In this document: positions 4,502 through 32,132 of the stretch, piece after piece | Position numbering within the stretch: the first letter of the stretch is position 1 | Layout: each line of letters starts with the position of its first letter | NCBI GenBank assembly: GCA_028277585.1 | Contig: JANQFY010000441.1 | Coordinates: 1-33,317, forward strand | Reading direction: 5' to 3' | Source of the DNA: Sedimentisphaerales bacterium | GTDB taxonomy: Bacteria > Planctomycetota > Phycisphaerae > Sedimentisphaerales > Anaerobacaceae | Length of the DNA stretch: 33,317 nucleotides | Notes under the pieces: model-generated | Seen by the model: the letters and a program-made list of their open reading frames with translations, nothing else | What the model was told of the DNA's origin: nothing | Database searches by the model: none | Program-made: the position numbers and the translations under genes

Positions 4502-5560
4502 TCAAGCGAGAGCCTCGCGGACGGATTCTGTGCCAGGTGTCTCGATCACCCCTCTCTCGGTAATGATCGCGGTGATGTTCTGCGCATCGGTGACGTCGAA
4601 GGCCGGGTTGTACACGGCGACGCCCTCCGGGGCGGTGGGGGTGCCCGCGAACTGGACCACCTCGTCCTTCGCTCGCTGCTCAATCGGGATGTCGGTACCG
4701 CTGGCGATGGACAGATCGAACGTGCTCGACGGCGCTGCGATATAGAACGGGATCCCATGCTGTCGCGCGAGAATGCTCAGGCTGTACGTGCCGATTTTAT
4801 TGGCCGCGTCACCGTTGGCCGCGATGCGGTCGGCCCCGGTGATCACCGCGTTGACCTTGCCCTGCCTCATCAACCAGCCGGCCATGTTGTCGCAGAGCAC
4901 GGTCACGTCGATACCCGCCTGCTGAAGCTCCCAGGCCGTCAGCCGGGCCCCTTGCAGCAGGGGCCGCGTCTCGTCGGCGTAGACCTTGAACGATCTTCCT
5001 TGCTCGTGGGCCGCGAACATGACCGACAGCGCTGTGCCTTGCCCGCCCGTTGCCAGGGCGCCCGCGTTGCAGTGGGTCAGGATGCCCGCGCCGTCGGCGA
5101 TGAAGGGCGCCCCATTCTGCCCGATTCGCCGGCACATCTCGATATCCTCATCGTGGATGGCCCTGGCCTCGACCAGCATCGCCTGATGAAGTTGCGCCAG
5201 AGTCGCCTCTGAATCCGCAACCACTTCTTGAGCCCTGTTACGCATGCGATCCAACGCCCAGAAAAGATTGACGGCCGTCGGGCGCGAGGTCGCGAGGTAG
5301 TCGCACGTCTGGAGGACGCACTCCAAGCCCTCGGCTGCGGTTGCGCCGGCATCAAGCTTCTGCAACGCCAGGACCGGCCCGTAGACGGCCGCCACGCCGA
5401 TCGCGGGCGCGCCGCGCACCGCCAGTGTCTGAATCGCCTCGTAGAGCGGCTCGACCTCGCGCACGGATAGCAAGGTGAACTCGCCGGGCAGGCGGCGCTG
5501 GTCGATCAGTTCCAAGACGCCTTGGCAGTCTCCGATCCATTTGACTGTCGGTGCAATCAC
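4502..5560 (-). CDS. mtnA: S-methyl-5-thioribose-1-phosphate isomerase
   Basis: Cytoplasmic isomerase that converts 5-methylthioribose-1-phosphate to the ribulose form in methionine salvage; MtnA enzymes also act on 5-deoxyribose-1-phosphate in the DHAP shunt. The length of 352 residues is typical. The catalytic cysteine is C164 (THCNAGALATGG) and the catalytic aspartate D244 (GADRIAANGDAANKIGTY). The substrate-binding RGAPAIG is at about residues 49-55. The start is GTG at 5558-5560, with GGAG five bases upstream; the nearby ATG is out of frame. It is the last gene of the eight-gene minus-strand run, 38 bp after the KDG kinase-like gene. No mtnK, mtnP, mtnB or other salvage gene is next to it, so its role in this operon is unclear. 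Confidence 0.95.
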   Translation of the reverse strand: MIAPTVKWIGDCQGVLELIDQRRLPGEFTLLSVREVEPLYEAIQTLAVRGAPAIGVAAVYGPVLALQKLDAGATAAEGLECVLQTCDYLATSRPTAVNLFWALDRMRNRAQEVVADSEATLAQLHQAMLVEARAIHDEDIEMCRRIGQNGAPFIADGAGILTHCNAGALATGGQGTALSVMFAAHEQGRSFKVYADETRPLLQGARLTAWELQQAGIDVTVLCDNMAGWLMRQGKVNAVITGADRIAANGDAANKIGTYSLSILARQHGIPFYIAAPSSTFDLSIASGTDIPIEQRAKDEVVQFAGTPTAPEGVAVYNPAFDVTDAQNITAIITERGVIETPGTESVREALA

Positions 5561-5598
5561 ATTGACTCCATTTCCAAAAAGACGATTGTGTCGTGAGA

Positions 5599-6699
5599 TT
5601 ATCGGTCTACGCGGGCGCCCGCGCCCTTCATGACCTTCTGGACTTCGTTCAGACTGGCGGTGGTGGTGTCGCCCGGTGTGGTCATCGCCAGCGCGCCGTG
5701 GGCGGCGCCGTAGTTGACGGCTTCACTCGGATCCTTGCCCTCCATCAGGCCGTAGATCAGCCCCGAAGCGAAGCTGTCACCACCCCCGACGCGGTCGTAG
5801 ATCTCCAAATCCTCGCGCAGGGTCGCATCATGGAACTGACCATCGGCGTACAGGACCGCGCCCCAGTCGTTGACCGAGGCGGTCTTGGCGTTGCGCAGGG
5901 TCGTGGCGACCGCCTGGAAGTTCGGGAACTCCTTGACCGCCGCTTCGATCATCTTGCGGAAGTTCGTCGGATCGAGCTTGGAATAGCCCGTATCGAGCCC
6001 CTGCACCTCGAACCCGAGCGCCGCGGTGAAGTCCTCCTCATTGCCCAGCATCACATCGACATAGGGCGCGATCGCGCGGTTGACGTCGCGCGCCTTGGCT
6101 TGCCCCCCGATGTCTTTCCAGAGCGAATTGCGGAAGTTCAGATCGTAGGAGACGATTGTGCCGTGCTTCTTGGCGGTCGTGACCGCTTCGATGATGACAT
6201 CCCGCGTTGTCTCCGAGAGCCCGGCGAAGATGCCGCCCGTATGGAACCAGCGGACCCCGTCGCGGCCGAAGATGGTCTCCCAGTCGATGTCTCCCTTCCG
6301 CAGTTGGGCCGCGGCGCTGTTGGCGCGGTCCGAACAACCGACGGCGGCGCGAACGCCGAACCCCCGCTCGGTGAAGTTCAGACCCACGCGCGTCTTGCGT
6401 CCGATCCCGTCGAACGGGACCCACTTGACGTAGTCCAGGCTGACGCCGCCTTGATACATCAGGTCTTCCAGCAGTCGGCCGATCGGATTGTCCACGATCG
6501 CGGTTACGACCGCCGCCCGTTTGCCGAAACAGCGCTTCAGGCCCCGCGCGACGTTGTATTCGCCGCCGCCCTCCCAGGCCCGGAAATGGCGGGTCGTGTG
6601 GATGCGCTCTTCGCCTGGATCGAGCCGGAGCATGACCTCGCCCAGCGAGAGGATGTCGTACTTGCATTCGGATACGTCTCTAACGTCTATTACGCCCAT
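5599..6699 (-). CDS. kdgK: PfkB-family carbohydrate kinase, probable 2-dehydro-3-deoxygluconate kinase
   Basis: A 366-residue ribokinase-fold kinase that would phosphorylate 2-keto-3-deoxygluconate (KDG) to KDPG with ATP. The start at 6699 (MGVIDVRDV) follows an AGGAG; the longer frame to 6825 runs into the upstream gene. Signatures are the substrate-end glycine pair (WEGGGEYNVARGL, near residues 42-54), YDLNFR (about 185-190), and the anion-hole/catalytic motif GGGDSFASG with D308 as probable base. The KDG assignment rests on overall resemblance to KdgK-type proteins and on the KDPG aldolase four genes upstream, which takes the product. The spacing to the upstream flavoprotein gene is 29 bp. 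Fructokinase or another PfkB specificity is the alternative. Confidence 0.82.
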   Translation of the reverse strand: MGVIDVRDVSECKYDILSLGEVMLRLDPGEERIHTTRHFRAWEGGGEYNVARGLKRCFGKRAAVVTAIVDNPIGRLLEDLMYQGGVSLDYVKWVPFDGIGRKTRVGLNFTERGFGVRAAVGCSDRANSAAAQLRKGDIDWETIFGRDGVRWFHTGGIFAGLSETTRDVIIEAVTTAKKHGTIVSYDLNFRNSLWKDIGGQAKARDVNRAIAPYVDVMLGNEEDFTAALGFEVQGLDTGYSKLDPTNFRKMIEAAVKEFPNFQAVATTLRNAKTASVNDWGAVLYADGQFHDATLREDLEIYDRVGGGDSFASGLIYGLMEGKDPSEAVNYGAAHGALAMTTPGDTTTASLNEVQKVMKGAGARVDR

Positions 6700-6728
6700 C
6701 GGCTTCTCCTTCTCCCGATCTCTGTCGG

Positions 6729-8765
6729 TCAGTCGCTGTAGATTTCGCCCTCTCGGTAGTCGCGCCACGCCGGCTCGAAGGCCTTGCGATCGGTCGGCGC
6801 CGGTCGGAGGGCTGTCGTGACGCACTTGAACAGGTCTTTGGCTCTGCTGTCAAGTTCGATGCGAAGAATCGACTGGCGCAGCTCAGGATTCTCCGGCTTG
6901 AACGTCAGCGGCGCACCCGTCGCCGGATCGATCACATCCTGGTGGATTCTGGTCCCATCGGTCGCCAGGACCAGATGCGAGCCGCGCGATCCGCTGCCTT
7001 GCCGCAGCAATTCGACGCTTGCTTTGAGATAGGCGGCGCTGGCCAGTGCCAAGTGCTCGGCCTCGATGGCGGCGACGACGGACTTGGGGCCATTCAGTTG
7101 AATTCCCGTCTTCTGAATCGTTCGATACAGCGCCACAGCCTCCCTCAGCGCTTGTTGAGCGTCTTCCTTCTCACGGATATGCCCCCCTGAGGCGGTCATG
7201 CGATGCTGAATCGTCTTGATGATGGCTCGGGAGGCCGCGCCTGTACTGTTCCTCCAGCCGTTCAGTTTCTCGATCAAACAGGTAACTTGCTCATCGATCT
7301 GCTTCTGTTGTTTGGAGTACTTGGGGAGGTCGCCGCCATAGACATTGGCGATGTATTCGGCGGCGCGGAGCCCTCCGGCTTGTCCGGCGTTCAGCGCCGA
7401 ACCCCCCGGACGCTTGACACCGTGACTGCCCGCCATCTCGCCGATTACGAACGTGTGAGGGACATTCGATTCCCACCACTTGTTGATGGCGAAACCCCCG
7501 TTATTGTGCTGGGCGCAGACCGCGATTTCGAGCGGTTCCTTATGGAGGTCAATGCCATTCTCTTTGTAGATGTCGATCGCCAGTGGGTTCATATGCGCCA
7601 GCCGCTTGATGGGCGTCTTCTGAAACGCGCCGGCCTTGACGAGATAGTCATACGCCTCGGATTCGAGGCCCTCGATCTCGAACTTCTTCATGGAGTGGCT
7701 TGCGATCGGGTCCCGGCGGAAGTCCATGAACACGCGCCGACCCTTCTGTGTCTCGTTGAAGACCAGGACATCGATGAGCGACGATTGCAGGTTCTCGATC
7801 CGCTGGGGGTCGAAAGGCCACTGGTAGCCTTTGAGGAAGATATCAGTCGCCATCTTGCTCATCGTCCGGAAGAAGTCGGTCAGGAACTCGCGCTCGTCCT
7901 CACCGGCCGCATCCGTGCTGAAGATCCGGGGGATCGCCTGCATGTACGTGCCCGAGACGTTCCAGCGGAACTTCGTACTGGCCAAGCCAAACTGCGATTC
8001 GGTGAGGTTCTCGGCCGCCAGACCCGCCCGGAAGGCCAGTCCATGGATGCCGATTTGCCCCTTCGGATACACGCTGGTTTCGTACAGGGCGCCGGGACCG
8101 CCGGCCGCCAGGACGATGTTCTGAGCCAGGAAGACGGTCAGACCCCAGTTCGAGTCGGTGACGTTCGATTTCTGCAGTGTCACCACGCCGGCAAGGCGCT
8201 TGGCTTTGCCCTTGCCAACGGTGAGCAGATGGGCGATTTGTTGCTTGTCGAAGATGGGCACGCCATAGGCTTCGACCTGTCTCTGCAGGCACTCGCTCAT
8301 AAACCGACTGGTCTTGGGCCCGGCGCTGGTGGCCCGCTCGGCCGGGTCGTGGTCGGTCTTGTACCCGATGAAGGTGCCCATCCCGTCGGTCGGGAAGGGC
8401 ACACCCGCCCGCACGAGATGAAAGAACTCACGTAGTGAACTGATCCCCTCGGCTAGCGCCAGGTCGCCGTGACAACACCCGCCGGCGGTTAGGGTCTGGG
8501 CGAATTCCTCGGCGCAGTCGGGAATCTCGGGGCTGGTCCCTTGCTTGTAATAGGTCTGCTTGTCCGAGCCGCTCATACGTGACGCGCCGAGTTTCAACCC
8601 GCCGGTGACGACCGCGATGCGCCGGGCCGCGTCCTTGATTCCCCGTTGCTGCATGAACTCGCAAAGATGGACCGCGCAGTTCATGCCGGCAGCGCCGGCG
8701 CCGACGATGACGGTGTTGTACTGGTGGAATGTCACGGACTGCTTGGCGATTCGTTTCTTCTTCAC
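6729..8765 (-). CDS. FAD-dependent oxidoreductase, succinate dehydrogenase/fumarate reductase flavoprotein-like
   Basis: A 678-residue soluble flavoprotein. The FAD dinucleotide-binding motif is near the N-terminus (VIVGAGAAGMNCA, about residues 20-32). Later come FLAQNIVLAAGGPG and the SdhA-like segments HNNGGFAINKWWE and GEMAGSHGVKRPGGSALN, which belong to the substrate/FAD region of the fumarate reductase class. The start is GTG at 8763-8765 and overlaps the stop of the propeller gene (GTGA), so translation is probably coupled. No Fe-S subunit or membrane anchor is nearby, so it is unlikely to be a respiratory complex II. It may oxidise or reduce a sugar-acid intermediate, but the substrate is unknown. 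Class is confident, reaction is not. Confidence 0.85.
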   Translation of the reverse strand: MKKKRIAKQSVTFHQYNTVIVGAGAAGMNCAVHLCEFMQQRGIKDAARRIAVVTGGLKLGASRMSGSDKQTYYKQGTSPEIPDCAEEFAQTLTAGGCCHGDLALAEGISSLREFFHLVRAGVPFPTDGMGTFIGYKTDHDPAERATSAGPKTSRFMSECLQRQVEAYGVPIFDKQQIAHLLTVGKGKAKRLAGVVTLQKSNVTDSNWGLTVFLAQNIVLAAGGPGALYETSVYPKGQIGIHGLAFRAGLAAENLTESQFGLASTKFRWNVSGTYMQAIPRIFSTDAAGEDEREFLTDFFRTMSKMATDIFLKGYQWPFDPQRIENLQSSLIDVLVFNETQKGRRVFMDFRRDPIASHSMKKFEIEGLESEAYDYLVKAGAFQKTPIKRLAHMNPLAIDIYKENGIDLHKEPLEIAVCAQHNNGGFAINKWWESNVPHTFVIGEMAGSHGVKRPGGSALNAGQAGGLRAAEYIANVYGGDLPKYSKQQKQIDEQVTCLIEKLNGWRNSTGAASRAIIKTIQHRMTASGGHIREKEDAQQALREAVALYRTIQKTGIQLNGPKSVVAAIEAEHLALASAAYLKASVELLRQGSGSRGSHLVLATDGTRIHQDVIDPATGAPLTFKPENPELRQSILRIELDSRAKDLFKCVTTALRPAPTDRKAFEPAWRDYREGEIYSD

Positions 8766-10240
8766 GGCGTGGTCCCGTTGAGTCTCTGTGGTTTGGCGAA
8801 GTCGTGGTTCATTTCACGGGGCAGGCGGAAGACTTCTCCGGCTTTGTTGGCGAAGTACAGCGAGGATATCGAAGGTTGCCGGCCGTGCCCGTCCGCCCAG
8901 AGGGCGTAGAAATCGTCATGGGCCCGCACGGGTTCCCTGGCGTACGTGTGGTTCAATGCGCTGCCTTGCGTGAGCTGAGCGACCCTTCGCCAGGTGCGTC
9001 CTTCGTTCTTGCTCGTCCACATCGCGATCTCACCACCCGGATTGTAGGGCTGCGGCCCCGTCTCGGTCGGCGCGATGATCCGCCATGTCCCGTTCGGCTC
9101 GATGTAGAGTGACCCCATATCGTAGTTGTTGTCCGAATTGAAAGCGGGGCGGATCGCCCACATCCGGCCCGTCCAGTGGGCCGTGGTCCAGGTGCGCGGG
9201 TTGTTCTTCGGACCGGCCTCGTAGCCTTGGCTGGTGATGAAGAGGATCACCGGGCGCCCCGCGCCATCGAAACGGATGTCCTTGAGGTAGACGAGCCGCC
9301 CGTCTTTCTCGTAGTCGTGGACCAGTGCGGCGTTCTTCGGTTCGGTCAGCGGGATCGTGACATTGCGTCCATCAGCGGCATGCCACGATTCGCCGAAATC
9401 GGTGGTCTCGAGGTAATAGAGATTCGTTCGCCAATTGAGGCCTGTCGCTTGGGGATGGTAATTCAGCGCCGCGCCCGCCTTGGATTCATTGGCGATGCTG
9501 ATTTGGTAGTGACCCCTTTCGATGGCGGCCAGTCTTTGCCACTTCGACCAGTGGACGCCATCGTCACTCGTCATGAAGCAGGCGGTCCGGTCGGCCGGAT
9601 ACTTGTAGCGCGTGAAGAACGCGACGAAGCCTTGCCCCGAGATGTACCAGGGCTGCATGTAGGAGAAGTTCGTCATGGGAACCTCATTGCCTTCTTCGAT
9701 CTTCGTCGGCTGGACCTGGACGAATTCGCTGACGTCGTACGGCCGGACACTGCGATGGATGTACGAAGGCCGCGACGTTCCGTGCGAGGTCGATAAGATC
9801 CAGATGATTCCCTTCTCGTCGATGGAGATCACGGGATTGTCATGGGCGTCGGTGGTCTTCTTGTCGAGCAGTATGGTCGGCTGCGGCACCATGCCTGTTG
9901 CGTGATCGTAGTAGGAGACCATGTGCAGTAGCGTCTTGTTTGCTCTTGCGCCATCAGGCGTGCCGCCATAGCAGAAGAAGGTCTTGTTCACTTCGTCGCA
10001 GTAGACGGCGAAAGGGCGGTGCTTGGCGCAGTAGGTTCCGAGCCCGCCGCTGTATTTGTACCGGTACTCGTTCTTCAGCGGCTGGTTCATGTACCAGATG
10101 CCCCGGTAGCCTGTGTCTTTGGCATTGAGCGTCAGAGGGGCTTCCGTTCCCGCCGCTACGGCCCCATAGGCAAGGAGCAACCCCAGAAGAAGCAGAAGAC
10201 TGCAGAATAGGCGCGTCCTCGTTGTCTCGCCTGTCGTCAT
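8762..10240 (-). CDS. Secreted BNR_4-type beta-propeller protein, possible polysaccharide lyase
   Basis: A 492-residue exported protein. The ATG at 10238-10240 is chosen because GGAGG lies 7-8 bases upstream and a signal peptide follows directly (Arg-rich start, LFCSLLLLLGLLLAYG, cleavage after AVAAG or so). The mature part has the features of BNR_4 repeat proteins: YRGIWYMNQP, a GGLGTYCAKHRPFAVY segment, DNPVISIDEKGIIWIL, SRPSYIHRS, several SxDxGxxW-like turns (SDDGVHWSKW, TDFGESWHAAD) and NEGRTWRRV. Seven-bladed propellers of this group include ulvan lyases (PL24/PL25 type), which cut uronic-acid polysaccharides. Its place between the eda gene (22 bp away) and the flavoprotein gene (4-bp overlap) fits a role in releasing an unsaturated uronate. 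Lyase activity is inference. Confidence 0.8.
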   Translation of the reverse strand: MTTGETTRTRLFCSLLLLLGLLLAYGAVAAGTEAPLTLNAKDTGYRGIWYMNQPLKNEYRYKYSGGLGTYCAKHRPFAVYCDEVNKTFFCYGGTPDGARANKTLLHMVSYYDHATGMVPQPTILLDKKTTDAHDNPVISIDEKGIIWILSTSHGTSRPSYIHRSVRPYDVSEFVQVQPTKIEEGNEVPMTNFSYMQPWYISGQGFVAFFTRYKYPADRTACFMTSDDGVHWSKWQRLAAIERGHYQISIANESKAGAALNYHPQATGLNWRTNLYYLETTDFGESWHAADGRNVTIPLTEPKNAALVHDYEKDGRLVYLKDIRFDGAGRPVILFITSQGYEAGPKNNPRTWTTAHWTGRMWAIRPAFNSDNNYDMGSLYIEPNGTWRIIAPTETGPQPYNPGGEIAMWTSKNEGRTWRRVAQLTQGSALNHTYAREPVRAHDDFYALWADGHGRQPSISSLYFANKAGEVFRLPREMNHDFAKPQRLNGTTP

Positions 10241-10262
10241 GACGTCCCTCCAGATTGGACTG

Positions 10263-11048
10263 TTATTCGATGTTGAAATCTCGCCCCGTCGCTTCACTGA
10301 TCTGGGCGAGCGAGGCGTTCTTGAAATCGATCCCTGGGTACTGCGCTGCTCGAAGCTCGTCGATGAGTTGCTTGACCGAGGTCAGTTCCTCAGCCAGTCG
10401 CTTGTAGTCCCGCTCGTCAATGATCTGTTGAAGGGTCGCCTTCTCGATCATGCTGAACGATCCGCCCAGGACGAGGACGCCGGCCTGGATGTAGTCGGGG
10501 ATGTTGCTCGCGTTCGTGCCGCCGGTCGGGACCAGGCTGATCATCTTGTGGATCGCCGGGTCGATCGCCTTGATGAAGGCCGGGCCGCCCAGTTGCTTGG
10601 CCGGGAAGACCTTGCACAGGTTGGCGCCCTGGGCGTACTGGCGCACCACTTCGCCGGCGCTGCCGCAACCCGGGATCATCGCCACGCGTCCACCGAACTT
10701 CTGGAATCCCGCCTCGCTGAAGTTCACCGCCGAGACCAGGTAGCACGCGCCGGCGTCCACCACTTGCTGCAAGGAGGGCAGGGGATCGTTCGGATGCCTC
10801 TTGTTGTACACGTCCAGCATGTCGGGCCAGTCGATCAGGCTGGCGGCGCCGGCGACGAAGCCGGGCAGCGCCTTGCGCAATCGCTCAAGCTTCTCCAGCG
10901 GTTTGTCGATCCGGCAGGTCACTTCCATGTTGTTGATGCCCGCCGTCATCAGGGCTTCGGCCGTCTTGACCAGGTCGAGCTTGTTCTGATTGAAGACGAG
11001 AATGAATCCGTCCTTCAGTAGTGTGGTGATGGTTGTCTCGATGTTCAT
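10263..11048 (-). CDS. eda: KDPG/KHG aldolase family protein
   Basis: Class I aldolase that would split KDPG into pyruvate and glyceraldehyde-3-phosphate. At 261 residues it is longer than the usual ~210. The extra length is an insertion around residues 72-90 (WPDMLDVYNKRHPNDPLPSL) and a C-terminal helix. Key residues are E42 in MEVTCR, the Schiff-base lysine K146 in CKVFPAKQLGG, and the phosphate-binding PTGG at 174-177, followed by VLGGS. The ATG at 11046-11048 has only a weak upstream site. A 62-bp gap with an inverted-repeat motif separates it from the SDR gene. Together with the downstream KDG kinase it gives the classic lower pathway for 2-keto-3-deoxy sugar acids. Confidence 0.88.
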   Translation of the reverse strand: MNIETTITTLLKDGFILVFNQNKLDLVKTAEALMTAGINNMEVTCRIDKPLEKLERLRKALPGFVAGAASLIDWPDMLDVYNKRHPNDPLPSLQQVVDAGACYLVSAVNFSEAGFQKFGGRVAMIPGCGSAGEVVRQYAQGANLCKVFPAKQLGGPAFIKAIDPAIHKMISLVPTGGTNASNIPDYIQAGVLVLGGSFSMIEKATLQQIIDERDYKRLAEELTSVKQLIDELRAAQYPGIDFKNASLAQISEATGRDFNIE

Positions 11049-11074
11049 GAGTGCTTTCGCCCTTCTCGGCTCTT

Positions 11075-11104
11075 AATAGGTCCTATACGACCTATTGGAC
11101 CTAT
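11075..11104. promoter_or_regulatory. Candidate operator upstream of the KDPG aldolase gene
   Basis: AATAGGTC (11075-11082), 6-base spacer, GACCTATT (11089-11096) is a perfect 8-bp inverted repeat. GACCTAT recurs at 11098-11104, nine bases after the first copy. The motif fills the 62-bp gap between the SDR and eda genes, which is the largest gap inside the eight-gene run. The size and symmetry suit a dimeric regulator such as a GntR- or LacI-type protein, but no such regulator gene is in the window. Confidence 0.5.
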
Positions 11105-11110
11105 ACTGTT

Positions 11111-11881
11111 CTAGAGTCGTCGCAGATGGAAGCCGCCGTCGACGTGGAGGACGGTTCCTGTGGAGAAATCGAGTCGGCCCTCGGCGATCGCGGCCACCGC
11201 CTGGGCGACGTCGTCGGGCCGGCCCCAGCGCTTGATCGGGGTCAGGCCATCGCCGATGAGTTTGTCGTACTTGCCCTTGACGGCGCTGGTCATGTCGGTC
11301 TCGATGATGCCGGGACTGACCTCGAAGACGCCAATGTTGTACTCGGCCAGTCGATCGGCGTACAGCTTGGTCATCATCGCCATTCCGGCTTTGCTGACGC
11401 AGTACTCGCCCCGCGCGGGTGAACTGGTGTAGGCGGAGATCGAGCCGATATTGACGATCCGCAGAGGACGCTCCGGTTCTTCCTTACGCTGCTCGATCAT
11501 CCAGTTGGCGACGAGTTGGGTCAGGAAGTAGGGGCCTTTGAGATTGATCCCCAGGACGCGATCGAAGCTCTCTTCGGTCGCGTCGAGGATGTCGAGTCGT
11601 TTCAGGGGCGCCGCACCGGCGTTGTTGACCAGCAGGTCGCAACGGCCGAACGTCGTGCGGGCGATCTCTACGATCTTCTCTCGGGCCTGGCTCTCGCCAA
11701 TATTCCCCGGTGCGAACGCGCACTGCGCGCCGAGCGCGGTTGCCTCTCCCATTACTTCCGGCTGCTTGGCCTGGGCTCGGTTGATGACCAGGTCGAAGCC
11801 CGATGAGGCCAACTCCAGTGCGATGCCGCGGCCGATCCCTCGACTGGCGCCGGTCACGATCGCTACGGGTCTATCCGGCAT
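11111..11881 (-). CDS. Short-chain dehydrogenase/reductase (FabG-like)
   Basis: A 256-residue classical SDR. The NAD(P)-binding TGASRGIG is at residues 10-17 and NNAGA at about 86-90. The catalytic set is the serine at 147 or 149 (NIGSIS) with Y160 and K164 (YCVSK). The end carries GTVLHVDGG, as in FabG and KduD-type enzymes. The ATG at 11879-11881 follows a GAGGGG about ten bases upstream. It lies 21 bp after the OYE fusion gene and 62 bp before eda. In this operon it more probably reduces or oxidises a sugar-acid intermediate, for example at a keto group in a KduD-like step, than takes part in fatty-acid synthesis. The substrate is not determinable here. Confidence 0.9.
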   Translation of the reverse strand: MPDRPVAIVTGASRGIGRGIALELASSGFDLVINRAQAKQPEVMGEATALGAQCAFAPGNIGESQAREKIVEIARTTFGRCDLLVNNAGAAPLKRLDILDATEESFDRVLGINLKGPYFLTQLVANWMIEQRKEEPERPLRIVNIGSISAYTSSPARGEYCVSKAGMAMMTKLYADRLAEYNIGVFEVSPGIIETDMTSAVKGKYDKLIGDGLTPIKRWGRPDDVAQAVAAIAEGRLDFSTGTVLHVDGGFHLRRL

Positions 11882-11902
11882 GATGCATGTCCCCTCTCTG
11901 CT

Positions 11903-14575
11903 CTAGGATGATAGAAACTGATCGATCTCCTTGGCGGCTCGAATGCCGTCAGCGACGGCCGCGACCACGGTCGACGGGCCGCGCACCAGATCGCCGCCGG
12001 CAAAGACCGCGTCCCGCGCGGTCGCGCACGTCCCGGCCTTCGTCTGAATCAGTCCGCCGCTCGTGTCTACGCCGGGCAATGTCGGTTCGATGTCTTCAGC
12101 GGATGCCTGGCCGATCGCCTCGACAACGAGGTCCATCTCCAGGTCATACGCGCTGGACTCGATCGGCTCGGGTCGGCGCCGTCCGCTCGGGTCGGGATCG
12201 CCCAGCCGGGTGGGACAGACCTTGATCCCTGTCAGCGTCCCATCCTTGGCGTTGTATTCGAGCGGCTGCGTCAGGATCAGGAAGTGGACGCCTGCGAAGA
12301 TCGCGCCTTGTCGTTCCGCCTCCCAGGCGGGCATCTCTTTGAACGAGCGCCGGTAGATCAGGTACACATCCGGAGCGCCGAGCTGCTTGGCCGTGACGGC
12401 GACGTCCATTGCGGTGTTGCCCCCTCCGACGACACCGACGGGTTGGCCCGTCAGGTCCGGGCTGTCCGGCTTCTTGGCTTCGGAGAGAAAGTCCATCGCA
12501 TTCCAGAGCCCGTCGAGCGGCGCGTCGGTGATGCTGGTCGCCTTGGGCAGGCCCAGGCCGACAAACGCGGCGTCGAAGCCTTGCGCCATGATCGTGTCCA
12601 GGTTGTTCGACGCGTCGAGTTCCTTGCCCAGACTCAGTGTCATGCGGTCCTCGGGAACCTCTGCGAAGATCGCGTTCAGTTCGTTCTTCAGCGCGCTGCT
12701 CTGCCGTTCCGGCGGGATGACCGACTCGACCATGCCGCCGAACTCGGTGCTCTTGTCGAAGATCGTCACGGTGTGCCCCGCCTCGAGCAGCTTGGCCGCA
12801 CACGCCAGGCCGGCCGGACCGGCGCCGATGATCGCGACCTTCTTGCCCGTCGCATTGGGAGGCAGCCGCAGCTCGGACCAGCCGCACTTGTTGGCTTGTT
12901 CGGACAGGTATCTCTGGATATCGGCGATCGGAAGCGCGCCGTCGCCGATGAAATGCTGCAGACAACTGCCCTGGCACTGCTGCTCCACCGGGCACAGCCA
13001 GGCGCAGATCTCGGGAAAGACGTTCGCTTCCCGGATGACTTCGTAGGCTTCGCGCTCCTTGCCGTCGAGAAACAGGTCGATGAAGCGGGGGATATCGATA
13101 CCGGCCGGGCAGGCGAGTTGACACGTCGGTTCCTGGCACTTGCGGCAGTCGCTTACCAGCCGCTGGAGGTTGTCCTTGTCGCTCATGCGACCATGCTTGA
13201 AGATCGGCCCGTACACGGCGTTGTCCCGCACGACGCAGCCGGTCCGGCCCGCGTCACGCATGATCTGTGTGCACGCGCTGCAACCGATGCAGACCTTCTC
13301 GGGGTCCATCCGTCCCGTCTGCACGATGTCCCGCGCGAAGTCGGGATAGGCGAACGCCATGCGGCCGCCTCCGACGATTGTCACGAGCCCGTTGGCTTTG
13401 TTGGCGGCGCCGACGTTGGCCATGAGCGTGCGGAGCCAACTGTATCCCGTTCCGACCAGCGCCATGTCGGGATAGGCCTGCTGCATCTGCCCTGTGACAT
13501 CGATCAGTCGCGCGACGCCCGCCAGCGGGTGTTCCGGCTCGTCGTAACCTCCCACGATCGGTTCGTTGAAGGGGCGTCCAACATGAGGATTGTAGTAGGG
13601 GTTCGCGATCGTGATGTCGATGAGCTTGACGCCGCGCTCCTGGAGCATCCCGACGAGCTTCATCGGTTCGGTCAGATCGGGCTTGGTGTAGTCGTCCTTA
13701 TCTACGCCCCAGCCGTAGGGGGAGGGGATGGCATCGTAGATGCCCAGCCGCGTGACCACCCGACCTTTGTCGCCCAGCTCGGCCTGTACGCGCTCCACCG
13801 TCTCGACGAGCAGGCGCGTGCGGTTCTCGAACGAGCCGCCGTACTTGCCGGGCCGGTTGTGACAGGCGAGCAGTTCGTTGATCAGGTACCCGTGACAAGC
13901 CTTGATATCGACGGCGTCGAAGCCGATCTCGAAGGCGATGCGGGCGGCCTCTACGTAGGCGTCTTGAAGTCTGTCGAGGTATTCGTCTGTTACGAGCGGA
14001 TAATCGTTGGGCAGCTTGCTCTTGCCCTCGAGATGGGGCGGCCATTGAGGAATCAGACAATCGCGATAGGGGTCCCGCTGGCCGATGATAGGCCGGGCGG
14101 TCCCATCCGGCTTGCTGTAGCGCCCCGAGTGGGTCAGTTGTGCAACCATGACGGGGCGATGCGAGCCGCCGTTGGCCTGGGCCGCCTTAGCCCGCGCGCG
14201 TTTGACCATCTCGGCAAAGACACTCTTGCTGCCCTCGTGCAACCACAACTGGCGCGGGTTGGCTCGTGCTTCGGGGACGATCGCAATCGCCTCGGCCCAG
14301 AGCAGTCCGGCGCCGCCTGCGCCGAAACGCTCGTAGCGGCGCAGCGTCAGGTTGCTCGGCCGGCCCTGAGAATCGCCGTCACAGCCTTCCATCGCGTGGA
14401 CGGACAGAGAGTTCGGGATGACCAGGTCATCGAACGCGACCGATTGGGCCAGAATGGAAACGTCTTCGATACCCTCGACCGAGAGGCCCAGTTCGCTGTT
14501 GAGGCGTCTGAGGTCATCGATGTTGCTCAGTTGAAACTCCCATCGGCGGGGCGATGTGGCGGTTTGCGTACTCAA
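11903..14575 (-). CDS. Old Yellow Enzyme / Fe-S / GltD-like FAD-NAD(P) oxidoreductase fusion
   Basis: An 890-residue multidomain flavoenzyme. Residues about 40-420 form an OYE-type FMN TIM barrel (MVAQLTHSGRYS, FDAVDIKACHGYLINELL, NRPGKYGGSFENR). A Cys cluster follows at about 428-447 (CIGCSACTQ, then DAGRTGC), as in 2,4-dienoyl-CoA reductases. Then comes a GltD/DPYD-type Fe-S domain with CRKCQEPTCQLACPAGID near 475 and CAWLCPVEQQCQGSC near 515. Last are two Rossmann motifs, AIIGAGPAGLACAA (about 582) and GVVGGGNTAMDVA (about 713), and an FAGGDLVRGPSTVVAAVADG end. The start is TTG at 14575, with AGGAGG about ten bases upstream; no in-frame ATG is better. It likely moves electrons from NAD(P)H through FAD and Fe-S to FMN and an enone-like substrate. 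The substrate is unknown. Confidence 0.87.
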   Translation of the reverse strand: MSTQTATSPRRWEFQLSNIDDLRRLNSELGLSVEGIEDVSILAQSVAFDDLVIPNSLSVHAMEGCDGDSQGRPSNLTLRRYERFGAGGAGLLWAEAIAIVPEARANPRQLWLHEGSKSVFAEMVKRARAKAAQANGGSHRPVMVAQLTHSGRYSKPDGTARPIIGQRDPYRDCLIPQWPPHLEGKSKLPNDYPLVTDEYLDRLQDAYVEAARIAFEIGFDAVDIKACHGYLINELLACHNRPGKYGGSFENRTRLLVETVERVQAELGDKGRVVTRLGIYDAIPSPYGWGVDKDDYTKPDLTEPMKLVGMLQERGVKLIDITIANPYYNPHVGRPFNEPIVGGYDEPEHPLAGVARLIDVTGQMQQAYPDMALVGTGYSWLRTLMANVGAANKANGLVTIVGGGRMAFAYPDFARDIVQTGRMDPEKVCIGCSACTQIMRDAGRTGCVVRDNAVYGPIFKHGRMSDKDNLQRLVSDCRKCQEPTCQLACPAGIDIPRFIDLFLDGKEREAYEVIREANVFPEICAWLCPVEQQCQGSCLQHFIGDGALPIADIQRYLSEQANKCGWSELRLPPNATGKKVAIIGAGPAGLACAAKLLEAGHTVTIFDKSTEFGGMVESVIPPERQSSALKNELNAIFAEVPEDRMTLSLGKELDASNNLDTIMAQGFDAAFVGLGLPKATSITDAPLDGLWNAMDFLSEAKKPDSPDLTGQPVGVVGGGNTAMDVAVTAKQLGAPDVYLIYRRSFKEMPAWEAERQGAIFAGVHFLILTQPLEYNAKDGTLTGIKVCPTRLGDPDPSGRRRPEPIESSAYDLEMDLVVEAIGQASAEDIEPTLPGVDTSGGLIQTKAGTCATARDAVFAGGDLVRGPSTVVAAVADGIRAAKEIDQFLSS

Positions 14576-14600
14576 GACTCAGACACCTCCTGTTGCGCTG

Positions 14601-17456
14601 CTATTTGTCGGCCTCCAGTCGGGCCTTCAGGAACTTGGCGGTATAGCTGACGGTATTCTTGACGACGTCCTCGGGCTTGCCCGCGACGACGACCGTTCCG
14701 CCGCCGTCGCCGCCCTCGGGACCGAGGTCTATTATATAGTCGGCGATCTTGATCACATCAAGGTTGTGTTCGATCACGATCACGGTATTGCCCATATCGC
14801 AGAGCCGCTGCAGGACGTTGAGCAGGTTCTGGATGTCGGCAAAGTGCAGGCCCGTGGTCGGCTCGTCGAGCAGGTACAGCGTATGGCCCGTCGCCGCCTT
14901 GCCCAACTCGGCCGAGAGCTTGACGCGCTGGGCCTCGCCGCCGGAGAGGGTGGTCGAGGACTGTCCGAGCTGCACATAACCCAGCCCCACGTCGGTTAGC
15001 GTCTTGAGAATGCGCACGATGGCGGGGAAGTTCGCGAAGAAATCCACCGCGTCTTCGATCCGCATCTCCAGCACGTCGGCGATGCTCTTGCCCTTGTAAG
15101 TGACCTGGAGCGTTTCGCGGTTGTAGCGCGTGCCCTTGCAGTTCTGGCACGTGACATACACGTCGGGCAAGAAGTGCATCTCGATCTTCTTCGTGCCCTG
15201 CCCCTTGCACGCTTCGCAGCGTCCACCCTTGACATTGAAGCTGAATCGCCCGGGCTTGTACCCGCGGATCTTGGCTTCCCGCGTCATGGAGAAGAGCTTG
15301 CGGATCTGGTCGAAGGCGCCGGTGTAGGTCGCGGGATTGCTCCTGGGCGTCTTGCCGATCGGCGACTGGTCGATCTCGATCACCTTGTCGATCTGCGAGG
15401 TCCCGAGGACGTTCTTGTGCTTGCCCGGCTTCTCCCGCGACTGGTAGAGCCGACGCTTCAGGGCGCGGAGCAGAATCTGGTTGACCAGCGTACTCTTGCC
15501 CGATCCCGAGACGCCGGTGACGCAGACGAAGACGCCGAGCGGGAACTTGACGTTGATCTCCTTGAGATTGTTCTCAGCGGCACCCTTGACCTCGAGGCAC
15601 TTGCGCAGGCTGTACTTGCGCCGCTTGGCCGGCAGTCGGATTCCCTTCTTGCCGCTGAGGTACTCGCCCGTCAGCGAGTTCTCGCACTTGATGATATCGT
15701 CGAGCGTGCCCTGGGCGACGAGTTCTCCGCCGTGCGTGCCGGCGGCCGGGCCGATATCGACGATGTGGTCCGCGGCGCAGATGATGTCCTCGTCGTGCTC
15801 GACGACGACCACCGAATTGCCGATATGGCTCAGCTTCTGCAGGATGCCCAGCAGGCGGTCGTTGTCGCGTTTGTGCAGACCGATCGTCGGTTCGTCCAGG
15901 ACATAGCAGCAGCCCACGAGGCCGCTGCCGACCTGGGTGGCCAGTCGAATCCGCTGCGCCTCGCCGCCGGCCAGCGTGCTGCTGATCCGGTCCAGCGTCA
16001 AGTAGCTCAGGCCCACATCGACCATGAACTTCAGCCGGGCTTTGATCTCCTTGAGGATCTGCTCGGCGATAACCGTTCGCTCTTCATTGAGCTTGAGCTT
16101 GGTGAAGAACTCCTGAGCCTTGCCGATGCTCATCCCGCTGAGTTCGTAGATGTTCTTGCCCCCGACGGTGACCGCGATGGCTTCCGGCCGCAGCCGCGCC
16201 CCGGCGCAACTCTGACACGACTGTTCGGACAGATACCCGTGCAGCCGCGCCTTGACGTAGTCGCTCGTGGTGTTCTTCCAGCGTCGCGTCAGGTTCGGGA
16301 TGACCCCTTCGAACGACAGGCCGTACTTCTTGCGGTCCGCCTCGGTCGTGCCGTGCATGAGGACGCGCTTGAGGTCTTTGGGGATCTCGCTGTAGGGGAT
16401 CGCCTTGCTGACGCCGATCTTCCGGCAGAACCGCTTGACCAGGCGGTTGTAGAAGATGTTCATCCGCTTGCCGCCTTTGCGCCAGGCGTCGATGGCGCCG
16501 TTCTCTAGTGAGACGGTCTTGTCCGGTACGATCAGATCGGTGTCGAACTCCAGGATCGTGCCCAGCCCGTCGCAGCTCTTGCATGCGCCGTAAGGGCTGT
16601 TGAAGCTGAACAGGCGGGGCGACAGCTCTTCCAGGCTGGCCTCGGGATGGTCCGAGCAGGCGAACTTCTCGCTGTAGACCGCTTCTTCCCAGTGCCCGTT
16701 CCCTCCGTTGCTCTTGTCCTCGCAGGGTTCCTGGATCAGAACGAGCAGGACGCCCTCGGCCAGTTTGAGCGCCGTCTCGATCGAGTCGGCCAGGCGGATC
16801 CGGACTCCTTGCTTGATGATCAAACGGTCGACCACCGCCGCGATGTCGTGCTTCTTGTTCTTGCTCAGTTCGGGAACGTTCCGCAAGTCGTAAATGCTGC
16901 CGTCGACGCGGACGCGGACGAACCCCTCCCGCTGGATGTGGGCGAAGACTTCCTTGTGTTCGCCTTTCTTGCCGCGCACCAGCGGGGCGCAGACCTGCAG
17001 CTTCGTCCCCTCGGGTCGCGTCAGGATCGACTCGACGATCTGCGTCGCGTGCTGGCTGGAGATCTCCTTGCCGCAGACCCAGCAGTGGGGCTGGCCCGCT
17101 CGGGCGAAGAGCAGCCGGAAGTAGTCATAGATCTCCGTCGTGGTCGCCACCGTTGAGCGCGGGTTGCTGCTGGCGCTGCGCTGCTCGATGGCGATCGTTG
17201 GGGGCAAGCCCGAGATATCCCCGACCGCCGGCTTCTGCATCTGTTCGAGGAACTGACGCGCGTACGCGCTGAGCGATTCGACGTACTTGCGCCGGCCCTC
17301 GGCGTAGATCGTGTCGAAGGCCAGCGAACTCTTGCCCGACCCGCTGATGCCCGTGATGACCACGAACTTGTCGCGCGGGATGCTCAGGCTGATGTTCTTG
17401 AGGTTGTGCTCGGCGGCGCCGGTGATCGTGATCGCCTTGTCTATCCGTTTAGCCAT
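14601..17456 (-). CDS. uvrA: Excinuclease ABC subunit A
   Basis: DNA damage-recognition ATPase of nucleotide excision repair. The length of 951 residues is normal. It starts MAKRIDKAITITGAAEHNLK. Landmarks are the first Walker A (GISGSGKSSLAFDTIY, about residues 36-51), SLSAYARQFL, a Cys-pair finger in CWVCGKEI, GACKSCDGLGTI, an ABC signature in STLAGGEAQRIRLA, and DEPTIGLH. The second half has GVSGSGKSTL, then the zinc-finger CEACKGQG with CQNCKGTRYN, STTLSGGEAQRVKL and DEPTTGLH. Both ATPase halves look intact. It is the first gene of the minus-strand run, and only 25 bp separate it from the OYE fusion gene, an unusual neighbour for a repair gene. Confidence 0.98.
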   Translation of the reverse strand: MAKRIDKAITITGAAEHNLKNISLSIPRDKFVVITGISGSGKSSLAFDTIYAEGRRKYVESLSAYARQFLEQMQKPAVGDISGLPPTIAIEQRSASSNPRSTVATTTEIYDYFRLLFARAGQPHCWVCGKEISSQHATQIVESILTRPEGTKLQVCAPLVRGKKGEHKEVFAHIQREGFVRVRVDGSIYDLRNVPELSKNKKHDIAAVVDRLIIKQGVRIRLADSIETALKLAEGVLLVLIQEPCEDKSNGGNGHWEEAVYSEKFACSDHPEASLEELSPRLFSFNSPYGACKSCDGLGTILEFDTDLIVPDKTVSLENGAIDAWRKGGKRMNIFYNRLVKRFCRKIGVSKAIPYSEIPKDLKRVLMHGTTEADRKKYGLSFEGVIPNLTRRWKNTTSDYVKARLHGYLSEQSCQSCAGARLRPEAIAVTVGGKNIYELSGMSIGKAQEFFTKLKLNEERTVIAEQILKEIKARLKFMVDVGLSYLTLDRISSTLAGGEAQRIRLATQVGSGLVGCCYVLDEPTIGLHKRDNDRLLGILQKLSHIGNSVVVVEHDEDIICAADHIVDIGPAAGTHGGELVAQGTLDDIIKCENSLTGEYLSGKKGIRLPAKRRKYSLRKCLEVKGAAENNLKEINVKFPLGVFVCVTGVSGSGKSTLVNQILLRALKRRLYQSREKPGKHKNVLGTSQIDKVIEIDQSPIGKTPRSNPATYTGAFDQIRKLFSMTREAKIRGYKPGRFSFNVKGGRCEACKGQGTKKIEMHFLPDVYVTCQNCKGTRYNRETLQVTYKGKSIADVLEMRIEDAVDFFANFPAIVRILKTLTDVGLGYVQLGQSSTTLSGGEAQRVKLSAELGKAATGHTLYLLDEPTTGLHFADIQNLLNVLQRLCDMGNTVIVIEHNLDVIKIADYIIDLGPEGGDGGGTVVVAGKPEDVVKNTVSYTAKFLKARLEADK

Positions 17457-23143: not shown

Positions 23144-24067
23144 CTATCGGGCCAGTTGCTGGTAGAGGTCGGCATACGTGCTTGGGACGAGTCCGATCTT
23201 GCGGGCGTGGGCGAACGTCAGTTCGAGCATCTTCATTTCGGGATCGAACGCATGCAAGGACCAGGGGTGCCAGATCAGGGAGATGTGCGGCTTGTTCGTC
23301 TCCCGCGCCTTGTCCATGAAGATCCGGTTGACCTCGAATTCGTCGCGGGGCGTTTCGACGAACTTCGTCGGGATGCCTTCGGGCATGGGCGAGGGCCAAA
23401 GCGTCAGGCGGCGCGATCCCCAGCGGTTGTTATCTTTGAGCAGGTTCTCGTGCCAACCGTGCCCGGGCAATTCCCACAACTTCGCAAACCCGTCTGTCTC
23501 GTAACGAAACGGCGCTTCGATCAGCGCGGGCATGGAGCAGTCGGGTCCCCACAACAGGGAACTGACGTATCGAAAGCCCGCTTCCCAGGTCAGTTCCAGC
23601 ACGTCGCGGGCGCCGCGGAAGGCGTTGTCGAACCCGACGGCGGGGCGCAGTCCCACGCAGGGCCGCTCGAAGATTTGTTCGATCAGTTCCTTGGCTTTGA
23701 AGATCTCTTCTCGCTTCTCCTGCGCCGAGACGGCCGGGCCGCACAGCGCGTTGTCACGCAGTAGCTTGTGGCTCCACGTGTGCGAGGCGACCTCGAAGAG
23801 TGGATCGGCCAGCAGCGCCTTGTATTCCTTGGTATTCGCTTCAAGCGTCTTGCCCGTAATGAAGAAGGTTGCGGGCATCTCGAACTTCTTGTGGACCGCG
23901 ACGATCTTGCGGCACGCTCGCAGGCACGCGGGCGACTCGGTGTCATAGGCGGCGATATAACGCGTCGGCTTCTTCTCCGAGTCGTTTGCCTTCGCCTGAT
24001 GAACGTGCGCGAACACCGCCGCGCCCAGCGCCGCCCCCATGAATTCCCTTCGCGAAACACGCACCAT
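23144..24067 (-). CDS. Secreted polysaccharide deacetylase (NodB fold)
   Basis: A 307-residue exported protein. The N-terminus is a twin-arginine-type signal (SRREFMGAALGAAVFAHV). The NodB fold shows as YIAAYDTES (motif 1, with a single Asp in place of the usual TFDD), MPATFFITG, the metal-binding HTWSH (motif 2), GLRPAVGFDN (motif 3), and HISLIWHPWSLH near the end (motif 5 region). Such enzymes remove N- or O-acetyl groups from amino-sugar glycans. The changed motif 1 means activity is not certain. The ATG at 24065-24067 has AGGAGG upstream. It is divergent from the alpha-N-acetylglucosaminidase gene, which suggests a joint role in breaking down N-acetylglucosamine-containing glycans. Confidence 0.85.
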   Translation of the reverse strand: MVRVSRREFMGAALGAAVFAHVHQAKANDSEKKPTRYIAAYDTESPACLRACRKIVAVHKKFEMPATFFITGKTLEANTKEYKALLADPLFEVASHTWSHKLLRDNALCGPAVSAQEKREEIFKAKELIEQIFERPCVGLRPAVGFDNAFRGARDVLELTWEAGFRYVSSLLWGPDCSMPALIEAPFRYETDGFAKLWELPGHGWHENLLKDNNRWGSRRLTLWPSPMPEGIPTKFVETPRDEFEVNRIFMDKARETNKPHISLIWHPWSLHAFDPEMKMLELTFAHARKIGLVPSTYADLYQQLAR

Positions 24068-30929: not shown

Positions 30930-32132
30930 ATGCGGTTCGGAATCGACGTACTCCTGCAAGACGCCGCGCTGCGCAGTTCCCTGGCCGGCCGGCGCGTGGC
31001 GCTTCTGGGCCATCCGGCATCCGTGACGGGGCAGTGCCGACACAGCCTGGACGCTTTGATCGATTGCCCGGACCTGCATGTGACCGCCGCGTTCGGTCCT
31101 CAGCACGGCATGCAGGGCGACAAGCAGGACAACATGATCGAGTCCGCCGATTATGTCGATCCGCGCCACAACATCCCCGTCTTCAGTCTGTACAGCGATG
31201 TGCGCCGGCCCACCGACGCGATGATCGGGACGTTCGATGTTCTGCTCGTGGACCTTCAGGACATCGGCGCCCGGCCCTACACGTATATCACGACCCTGAC
31301 CTACTTCATCGAAGCGTGCGCTACCCATGGAAAGGCGATCTGGGTCCTCGACCGACCCAACCCGACCGGTCGGCCGTTCGAAGGCGCCATTCTCAGCCGG
31401 GAATGGACCAGCTTCGTGGGGATCGAAGGGCTGATTATGCGGCACGGCCTGACCTTGGGCGAATTGGCCCGCTGGTTCGTCGCGCAGCAGAATCTCGACG
31501 TCGACCTGTACGTCGTCGGCGTGACCGGCTACGATCCTGAGGCGGGGCCGGGCTATGGTTGGCCCCTCGGCGAACGGTCATGGGTCAATCCCAGCCCCAA
31601 CGCGTCCAGCCTCAACATGGCGCGCTGCTTTCCCGGGACGGTCCTGTTCGAAGGCACCACGCTGTCAGAAGGGCGAGGAACGACGACGCCTCTGGAGGTG
31701 GTCGGCGCCCCCGACATCGACTTTGACGCCGTTTTGAATCGCTTGCGGTCTCTGGCCCCGGCGTGGTTGGCCGGTTGCACGCTGCGGCGTTGCTGCTTCG
31801 AGCCGACGTTCGACAAATACAAGGGCCGGACGTGCTCAGGACTCCAGATCCACGCGGACAACAGCTTCTACCGGCACGAGGCGTTCCGGCCCTTCCGGCT
31901 AGGTGCTCTGTCGCTCAAGGCGATCCGGCTGGAGCAGCCCGACTATCCCCTCTGGTGCCGCTTTCCGTTCGAGTACGAGACCGAGCGGCTTCCCTTCGAT
32001 CTTCTCAGTGGTGGAACGTTCCTGCGCGAATGGGTGGACGATCCGGCCGCCGAGCCGGGCGACCTGGACAGCAGGCTGACCCAGGACGAGCAGCAATGGT
32101 GCGATGTCCGAGCGCCCTTCCTAGTCTATTGA
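30930..32132 (+). CDS. DUF1343 protein, NamZ-type exo-beta-N-acetylmuramidase family (GH171)
   Basis: A 400-residue protein of the DUF1343 family, whose characterised members remove terminal N-acetylmuramic acid from peptidoglycan fragments. Family landmarks in order are RRVALLGHPASVT, FGPQHGMQGDKQDNM, DVLLVDLQDIGARPYTYITT, LDRPNPTGRPFEGAIL, NPSPNASSLNMARCFPGT, LFEGTTLSEGRGTTTPLE, then the C-terminal domain with CSGLQIHADN and FEYETERLPFD. No signal peptide is visible, so it may act in the cytoplasm on imported muropeptides. The ATG at 30930 follows GAGGG. It lies 8 bp after the lipoprotein gene and overlaps by 12 bp the 3' end of the convergent gene. Confidence 0.9.
   Translation: MRFGIDVLLQDAALRSSLAGRRVALLGHPASVTGQCRHSLDALIDCPDLHVTAAFGPQHGMQGDKQDNMIESADYVDPRHNIPVFSLYSDVRRPTDAMIGTFDVLLVDLQDIGARPYTYITTLTYFIEACATHGKAIWVLDRPNPTGRPFEGAILSREWTSFVGIEGLIMRHGLTLGELARWFVAQQNLDVDLYVVGVTGYDPEAGPGYGWPLGERSWVNPSPNASSLNMARCFPGTVLFEGTTLSEGRGTTTPLEVVGAPDIDFDAVLNRLRSLAPAWLAGCTLRRCCFEPTFDKYKGRTCSGLQIHADNSFYRHEAFRPFRLGALSLKAIRLEQPDYPLWCRFPFEYETERLPFDLLSGGTFLREWVDDPAAEPGDLDSRLTQDEQQWCDVRAPFLVY

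Follow-up and report, generated by a model that had tools for sequence, protein, structure and literature searches.

What would a bacterium do with an old yellow enzyme (OYE), a short-chain dehydrogenase/reductase (SDR) and an SdhA-like flavoprotein when all three are encoded beside a kinase and an aldolase of the types that break down 2-keto-3-deoxygluconate (KDG)? The question is raised by eight consecutive genes at positions 4502–17456 of a 33,317-nucleotide stretch, hereafter the window, from a Sedimentisphaerales bacterium (contig JANQFY010000441.1 of assembly GCA_028277585.1). We find that the OYE, SDR and SdhA-like set, which we call the trio, is a real and widely conserved module that is undescribed in the literature searched, where we found no paper on the combination. 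For the window's lineage we favor the reading, at a probability of about 0.45, that six of the eight genes form a catabolic operon for a uronic-acid polysaccharide in which the trio yields KDG. The genes are, in the direction of transcription:

14601..17456, minus strand: uvrA, excinuclease subunit A, a flanking housekeeping gene (NF001503, 1447.6 bits, cut-off 1147)
11903..14575, minus strand: fusion of OYE, 4Fe4S and GltD-like (Fer4_20 plus Pyr_redox_2) parts, 890 residues, TTG start (Pfam, solved-structure matches, alignment with FadH and NemA)
11111..11881, minus strand: SDR of PRK12745 type, 256 residues (NF009386, 330.8 bits, cut-off 250)
10263..11048, minus strand: divergent aldolase of the Eda family, of the type acting on 2-keto-3-deoxy-6-phosphogluconate (KDPG) or 2-keto-4-hydroxyglutarate (KHG), 261 residues (PF01081, 78.8 bits, cut-off 27.8)
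8762..10297 (longest open reading frame, ORF; likely ATG at 10240), minus strand: BNR_4 propeller, probable uronate lyase of the type of polysaccharide lyase (PL) families 24, 25 and 42 (PF15892, 64.6 bits)
6729..8765, minus strand: SdhA/FrdA-like FAD protein, 678 residues (PF00890, 48.9 bits)
5599..6699 (likely ATG at 6699; longest ORF from 6825), minus strand: PfkB kinase of KDG-kinase type (PF00294, 88.3 bits)
4502..5560, minus strand: mtnA, methylthioribose-1-phosphate isomerase, a flanking gene (TIGR00512, 433.5 bits, cut-off 279)

Extent of the operon

An earlier note on this DNA had described the run as an eight-gene operon. All eight genes lie on one strand where it had placed them, and the domain content it reported is confirmed for the OYE/Fe-S/GltD fusion, the SDR, the KDPG-type aldolase, the BNR_4 protein, the SdhA-like FAD protein and the PfkB kinase. 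The pathway set is nevertheless smaller than claimed. The two outer genes score above their NCBIfam cut-offs as uvrA and mtnA, which rules them out as pathway members on the ground that they are housekeeping genes, and the metabolic set therefore consists of six genes. Measured between longest ORFs from uvrA to mtnA, the gaps are 25, 21, 62, −35, −4, −97 and 38 bp; the likely ATG starts of the BNR_4 and kinase genes turn −35 into 22 bp and −97 into 29 bp. Judged by this spacing, the six genes at 5599–14575 probably form a single transcription unit. Promoter-like patterns (4, against 2.7 in shuffled sequence) and terminator-like patterns (11 against 10.6) occur at chance level.

Conservation of the trio

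A genome scan with the flavoprotein gave at least 583 confirmed relatives, of which the best 80 were used as loci. Thirty-one of these have at least 5 kb on both sides (full-flank loci), and neighbors were counted on the same strand within 5 kb by family profiles. At the full-flank loci we found the SDR in 29, the OYE in 23, all three genes in 22, an aldolase or kinase in 15 and a window-type BNR gene in 4. The corresponding numbers for all 80 loci, contig edges included, are 59, 39, 36, 26 and 7; strict score limits alter only the OYE (38/80), the trio (35/80) and the separate aldolase counts. Full trios among the 80 come from 23 planctomycete loci (22 by strict limits) and 13 others: Armatimonadota L056, Aminicenantes L073, L090, L093 and L099, Acidobacteria L100, KSB1 L080 and L101, Firestonebacteria L082 and L087, Bipolaricaulota L107, and Bacillota L108 and L111. 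Trees of the three families agree, with distance correlations of 0.73 (flavoprotein–SDR), 0.835 (flavoprotein–OYE) and 0.807 (SDR–OYE) against a maximum of 0.20–0.33 in 1000 shuffles, an agreement that is partly due to shared species history.

Could this order simply be inherited synteny without shared function? A window-type BNR gene occurs in the same gene order in L032, L033, L036, L037, L041, L072 and L077, and the seven loci with such a gene are flanked by uvrA and mtnA where the contig extends far enough. A same-order search found no kinase between the flavoprotein and mtnA in L035, L037, L038 and L045. We regard synteny alone as very improbable, given that the trio holds together across phyla and is intact at loci with no uvrA or mtnA match (L040, L044, L046, L051, L053, L070 and L074). 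The earlier note had tied its idea of a system to conserved order in other planctomycetes. Since close relatives keep the order and the trio remains intact away from uvrA and mtnA, scattering was not seen and the idea survives this comparison.

Other genes recur around the trio. In three phyla a trio operon contains or adjoins a URO-D gene (uroporphyrinogen decarboxylase or corrinoid methyltransferase-like; L156:11377-12417 by Pfam, L107:6630-7697 and L111:12107-13132 by clustering), which accounts for 3 of 110 neighbor ORFs sampled as described below and may hint at a methyltransferase role. An Nramp-like transporter gene lies in or beside three planctomycete flavoprotein loci (L074:6822-8300 by Pfam; L060:7720-9204 and L046:12038-13474 by clustering). 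An IlvD/EDD gene near the flavoprotein at L159 was set aside as biosynthetic (1133 bits, cut-off 710); genes of this family also lie near the flavoprotein at L115 and L097.

The flavoprotein and its two branches

Judged by its motifs and a predicted structure, the FAD protein is a member of the SdhA/FrdA-type flavoprotein superfamily. The structure model (mean predicted local distance difference test, pLDDT, 90.0) matches FrdA (1kf6) over the whole chain in Foldseek, with an E-value of 5.0e-27 at 17% identity. The window protein and 46 relatives have long invariant stretches in common; the family keeps the core His and Arg of SdhA/FrdA/NadB, conserves QH-NGG, RPGG and SRG motifs and carries a family-specific insert, FLKGYQWPFD. 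It is not a succinate dehydrogenase or fumarate reductase, as the TIGR01812 score is 53 bits against a cut-off of 567 and the operon has no SdhB gene.

In a tree of 117 sequences, the flavoproteins of E. coli and Rhizobium and one planctomycete set form a separate clade with support of 1.00, and the window's protein falls in the other part, which contains the OYE-linked loci. No OYE was seen in the E. coli/Rhizobium clade, most of whose planctomycete loci have only ∼1.5 kb of flank. The E. coli operon (L112:10044-19827, strain pOHT76-1_1) sits between ytfB and rplI, carries no gene name in the database records inspected, and comprises genes for a TetR protein, a PRK12745 SDR (419 bits), a TIM barrel, an enoyl-CoA hydratase, a CoA-transferase, the FAD protein and a tripartite ATP-independent periplasmic (TRAP) transporter. 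Of 5426 complete E. coli genomes, 3133 contain a match to its five-enzyme stretch, and in 3094 the match covers at least 80% of the stretch.

The remaining enzymes of the set

The window's OYE scores 72.1 bits for the PF00724 Oxidored_FMN domain (cut-off 27), which places it in the old yellow enzyme family. OYEs bind substrate through a His-x-x-His/Asn pair. This pair is not kept in the consensus of the family, built without the divergent L097 and L103, which has K-x-x-H where NemA has H-x-x-H; the window motif is VDIKACHGYL, with Lys at the position of the NemA His, and FadH departs from the pair too. Family members also have an N-terminal extension not shared with the others and, at the C-terminal end, a CxxC Fe-S motif. 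Protein lengths indicate fusion of the GltD-like part in many planctomycetes, at both Firestonebacteria loci and in Armatimonadota L056; forms of ∼440–510 residues without it also occur, some planctomycetes among them. The SDR shares 31.7% identity with E. coli KduD and scores 141.8 bits against the KduD model, far below the cut-off of 338.85.

The earlier note had called the lower pathway, from KDG through KDPG, firm. That word is too strong, because the aldolase falls below its NCBIfam cut-off and the kinase below that of each NCBIfam model it matches. The aldolase passes its Pfam cut-off and scores 100.6 bits against the NCBIfam Eda model (cut-off 156.05). Aligned to E. coli Eda, it has a 16-residue insertion and keeps the Glu, the Lys and the TGG loop, which we take to be the catalytic glutamate, the Schiff-base residue and the phosphate loop. 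The kinase belongs to the PfkB family and scores 142 (cut-off 440) and 69 (cut-off 400) bits against KDG-kinase models; NF041633, a KDPG aldolase/kinase fusion model, gives 286 bits over the kinase part (cut-off 700). The assignment itself is backed by a cluster in a complete genome of the same order (L156, discussed below), where a kinase 79% identical to the window's adjoins an aldolase that scores 337.1 bits against the KHG/KDPG equivalog cut-off of 275. Twenty-four clustered aldolase ORFs, one from each of 24 loci, are of either the window's variant or the ordinary aldolase type.

A probable lyase in the window's lineage

We regard the BNR_4 propeller as a probable PL24/25/42-type uronate lyase, because a profile built from it matches a PL25 structure and the protein keeps the catalytic residue set of these families. 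The profile, made from the window sequence and seven relatives, matches the PL25 ulvan lyase 5UAM with an E-value of 4.4e-5; the single window sequence gave no more than a chance match to solved structures (E = 0.74). In the PL25 enzyme PLSV_3936, catalysis is attributed to His123, Tyr188 and Arg204 and binding to Tyr246 (PMC13193363). PMC10951650 gives Asp83, His85, His105, Tyr150, Arg166 and Tyr202 as the residues used by the PL42 enzyme FoRham1 and describes its His-His-Asp triad as conserved in PL24 and PL25. Like these seven-bladed propellers, the window protein has an Asp-x-His, His, Tyr, Arg, Tyr set at similar spacing: D150, H152, H172, Y213, R230 and Y264, numbered from the longest ORF. 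An alignment of 22 BNR sequences shows no change at D150, H152 or Y213; the residue at position 172 is His in 16 of them and Arg in the other 6, Tyr occupies position 264 in 21, and R230 is variable. The window protein differs from the characterized families in being distant in sequence, and in some homologs the second His is replaced by Arg or the Arg of the set is missing. A hydrophobic N-terminal stretch, read by eye as a signal peptide, suggests export. The structure model (pLDDT 52.4) was too low in confidence for a fold search.

Among 294 genomes of the phylum, 16 encode close relatives of this protein, and 5 of the 16 are flavoprotein-positive; the propeller is therefore accessory and outside the core. 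A separate BNR_4 gene (317 bits) lies between the OYE and SDR genes in L040.

KDG-forming enzymes in related genomes

The complete genome of the same order, G127, brings a lyase together with the trio, the kinase and the aldolase in a single cluster, L156. Its order is a PL22 protein among three look-alike ORFs, a Gfo/Idh protein, kinase, aldolase, flavoprotein, SDR, URO-D and OYE fusion. The PL22 model PF14583 matches G127 in two places, both in L156 and one above cut-off. The genome has no match to PF04962 (the KduI/IolB family), PF03786 (UxuA) or PF04295; its sole MR_MLE match is below cut-off and its sole ILVD_EDD protein is a biosynthetic ilvD by equivalog score. UxaC is present; its operon also contains gnd and genes for a mannonate oxidoreductase and a nickel-dependent, putative hexonate epimerase. 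This gene content suggests that saturated uronates probably go via mannonate and gluconate, as had been proposed before (work cited in PMC6978723). KDG would therefore need another source, and the trio cluster is the best candidate for that source in G127.

A stretch with the same four types of gene was seen at L173:9120-14635. UxaC, gnd and a putative hexonate epimerase gene also stand beside the trio in L040 (L040:15509-19774), and gnd lies near UxaC in the window's genome too. The stretches at L173 and L040 point to a likely planctomycete route from uronate to gluconate. UxaC occurs in 20 of 34 flavoprotein-positive and 38 of 260 negative genomes (p = 6.9e-8), a difference that 10 of 11 E. 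coli-branch genomes help to drive. In the window's branch it occurs in 9 of 16 genomes (p = 2.6e-4 against the same negatives), where 14 were placed by the tree and G192 and G241 by kinship, 7 other positive genomes are omitted and the genomes are not independent. We considered UxaC as a partner of the trio and rejected it, since in G127 and L040 it belongs to the gnd/hexonate-epimerase operon and since the genomes are not independent. Eight of the 20 flavoprotein-positive genomes with UxaC have neither UxuA (>30 bits) nor PF04295, and PF04962 is missing as well from 6 of the 8; only G127 and G028, a draft with an MR_MLE match, are in the window's branch.

A proposed route to KDG and its alternatives

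We suggest the following scheme for the window's lineage. The exported propeller would cut the chain by β-elimination, as its active-site residues imply, leaving a 4,5-unsaturated uronate. Inside the cell the OYE, SDR and SdhA-like flavoprotein would act as one pathway that makes KDG from a uronate and replaces the KduI/KduD or reductase/dehydratase steps. The kinase would then turn KDG into KDPG, which the aldolase would split into pyruvate and glyceraldehyde 3-phosphate. The assignment of individual steps is doubtful: in the likeliest version the OYE, drawing on its Fe-S and NAD(P)H domains, might reduce the C4=C5 bond of the unsaturated uronate, the flavoprotein might oxidize the C5 hydroxyl beside the carboxylate to a ketone, and the SDR might reduce the C1 aldehyde. 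Succinate dehydrogenase slowly carries out the same kind of oxidation on malate. The net change would be +2H, −2H, +2H, from C6H8O6 to KDG, C6H10O6. The earlier note's proposal of a redox route that joins at KDG is partly borne out: it is favored by the conserved trio, the lyase-like propeller and a complete genome with no match to the canonical KDG-forming enzymes searched for.

The KduI/KduD–KdgK–Eda route, which serves pectin and glycosaminoglycans, likewise leads from a lyase product to KDG and then through a kinase and an aldolase. The window's operon differs in having no KduI, an SDR that scores far below the KduD cut-off, and the additional OYE and SdhA-like proteins, and G127 has no PF04962 match. 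The only PF04962 hit in the window's genome sits among iol-type genes and was read as IolB rather than KduI; it belongs to a myo-inositol type operon (L155:412-11051, G000 contig 506), the other genes of which were identified by eye. The UxaC–UxuB–UxuA hexuronate isomerase pathway also ends at KDG, and none of its genes is in the window set.

Several observations weigh against our reading. The window's own genome, which is 80% complete, encodes UxaC elsewhere, has a UxuA-like protein split into pieces that score 121 and 45 bits, and gives five matches to MR_MLE, so that the trio is not the sole conceivable route there. For the same reason the lack of an isomerase and a dehydratase in the window, which the earlier note took as fitting redox replacement, tells us little. 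The dehydratase negative in G127 covers four family models. A phylum-wide linkage between lyase and trio was sought and not found: of the flavoprotein-positive genomes, 11 have a PL22 above cut-off, which lies on the flavoprotein's contig in one, and 8 have BNR_4, which is near the flavoprotein in the window's own only, so that linkage is lineage-local, although drafts with short contigs might conceal further linked lyases. Aldolase and kinase were not found within 5 kb at 16 of the 31 full-flank loci. At the Bacillota loci we saw TRAP or ABC transporters and, by eye, no lyase. In the alignment of the flavoprotein family nothing corresponds to the Arg of the FrdA EGCRGEGG stretch, and the annotated operons of the family's E. 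coli/Rhizobium branch are without OYE and contain CoA-transferase and enoyl-CoA hydratase genes. Finally, making KDG from unsaturated uronates in the alginate-type route needs an SDR only, which would leave the OYE and flavoprotein unexplained.

Alternatively, the trio could be a general route for another sugar acid or polyol and not for a lyase-derived uronate, with the kinase and aldolase serving some lineages and lyases added in some planctomycetes. Only 3 of the 11 non-planctomycete full-flank loci have an aldolase or kinase within 5 kb (8 have neither), L078 has a TRAP binding protein and, by eye, L068 has ABC transporter genes. In a selection of 110 neighbor ORFs out of 188, listed after exclusion of 12 loci that share the window's synteny, TIM-barrel isomerases (7) and Gfo/Idh/MocA proteins (6) are seen most often, followed by LacI-type proteins, zinc-dependent alcohol dehydrogenases and CoA-transferases (3 each); such lists are rough, as one gene caller missed the window's aldolase and both pick wrong strands in GC-rich loci. 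We nevertheless consider this alternative somewhat unlikely. The aldolase is inside the operon in the window and its relatives, in Aminicenantes the trio is followed by an aldolase-kinase protein at L090 (by Pfam) and at L099 (by profile), and pectin or uronate genes recur beside planctomycete trios (PL22 in L156, PL1 in L044, GH28 in L070 and UxaC in L040).

Another possibility is that the SDR, kinase and aldolase alone make and use KDG while the OYE and flavoprotein carry out a separate, equol-like reductive step. In alginate catabolism a single SDR, the reductase of 4-deoxy-5-keto uronate (DEH), yields KDG without an OYE or flavoprotein, and the window's SDR could act likewise; the window set adds the other two enzymes to such a step. 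An OYE with Fe-S and an SDR are shared with equol formation, in which the DZNR/DHDR/THDR trio acts on isoflavones, and with the bile acid enzymes BaiCD/BaiH/BaiA; the equol set has an SdhA-like flavoprotein as well. The window set differs in its sugar context, and its OYE scores 87 bits against the BaiCD model (cut-off 825). The 25 commonest neighbor families belong to sugar pathways or are general, and none is typical of aromatics. The pairing of flavoprotein and SDR is the most constant of all (29 of the 31 full-flank loci) and the trees of the three families match one another, which favors a single pathway and makes a division of labor improbable.

Elsewhere in the window we noted a polysaccharide deacetylase-like gene (23147-24067), a GH89 α-N-acetylglucosaminidase gene (24246-26435, 415 bits) and a NamZ-type exo-β-N-acetylmuramidase gene (30930-32129).

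Beyond the window's lineage, we tentatively propose that the trio may represent an undescribed oxidoreductive pathway that crosses phyla and turns hexuronates, saturated or unsaturated, into KDG through redox steps instead of isomerases and dehydratases, with a sister branch of the flavoprotein in the unnamed E. coli operon. If so, three flavin- and NAD-dependent enzyme families that travel together across phyla, mostly in metagenome-assembled genomes, would gain a function, and pectin- and ulvan-type sugars would have a new entry to KDG. It would also provide a lead for an unassigned operon carried by more than half of complete E. coli genomes.

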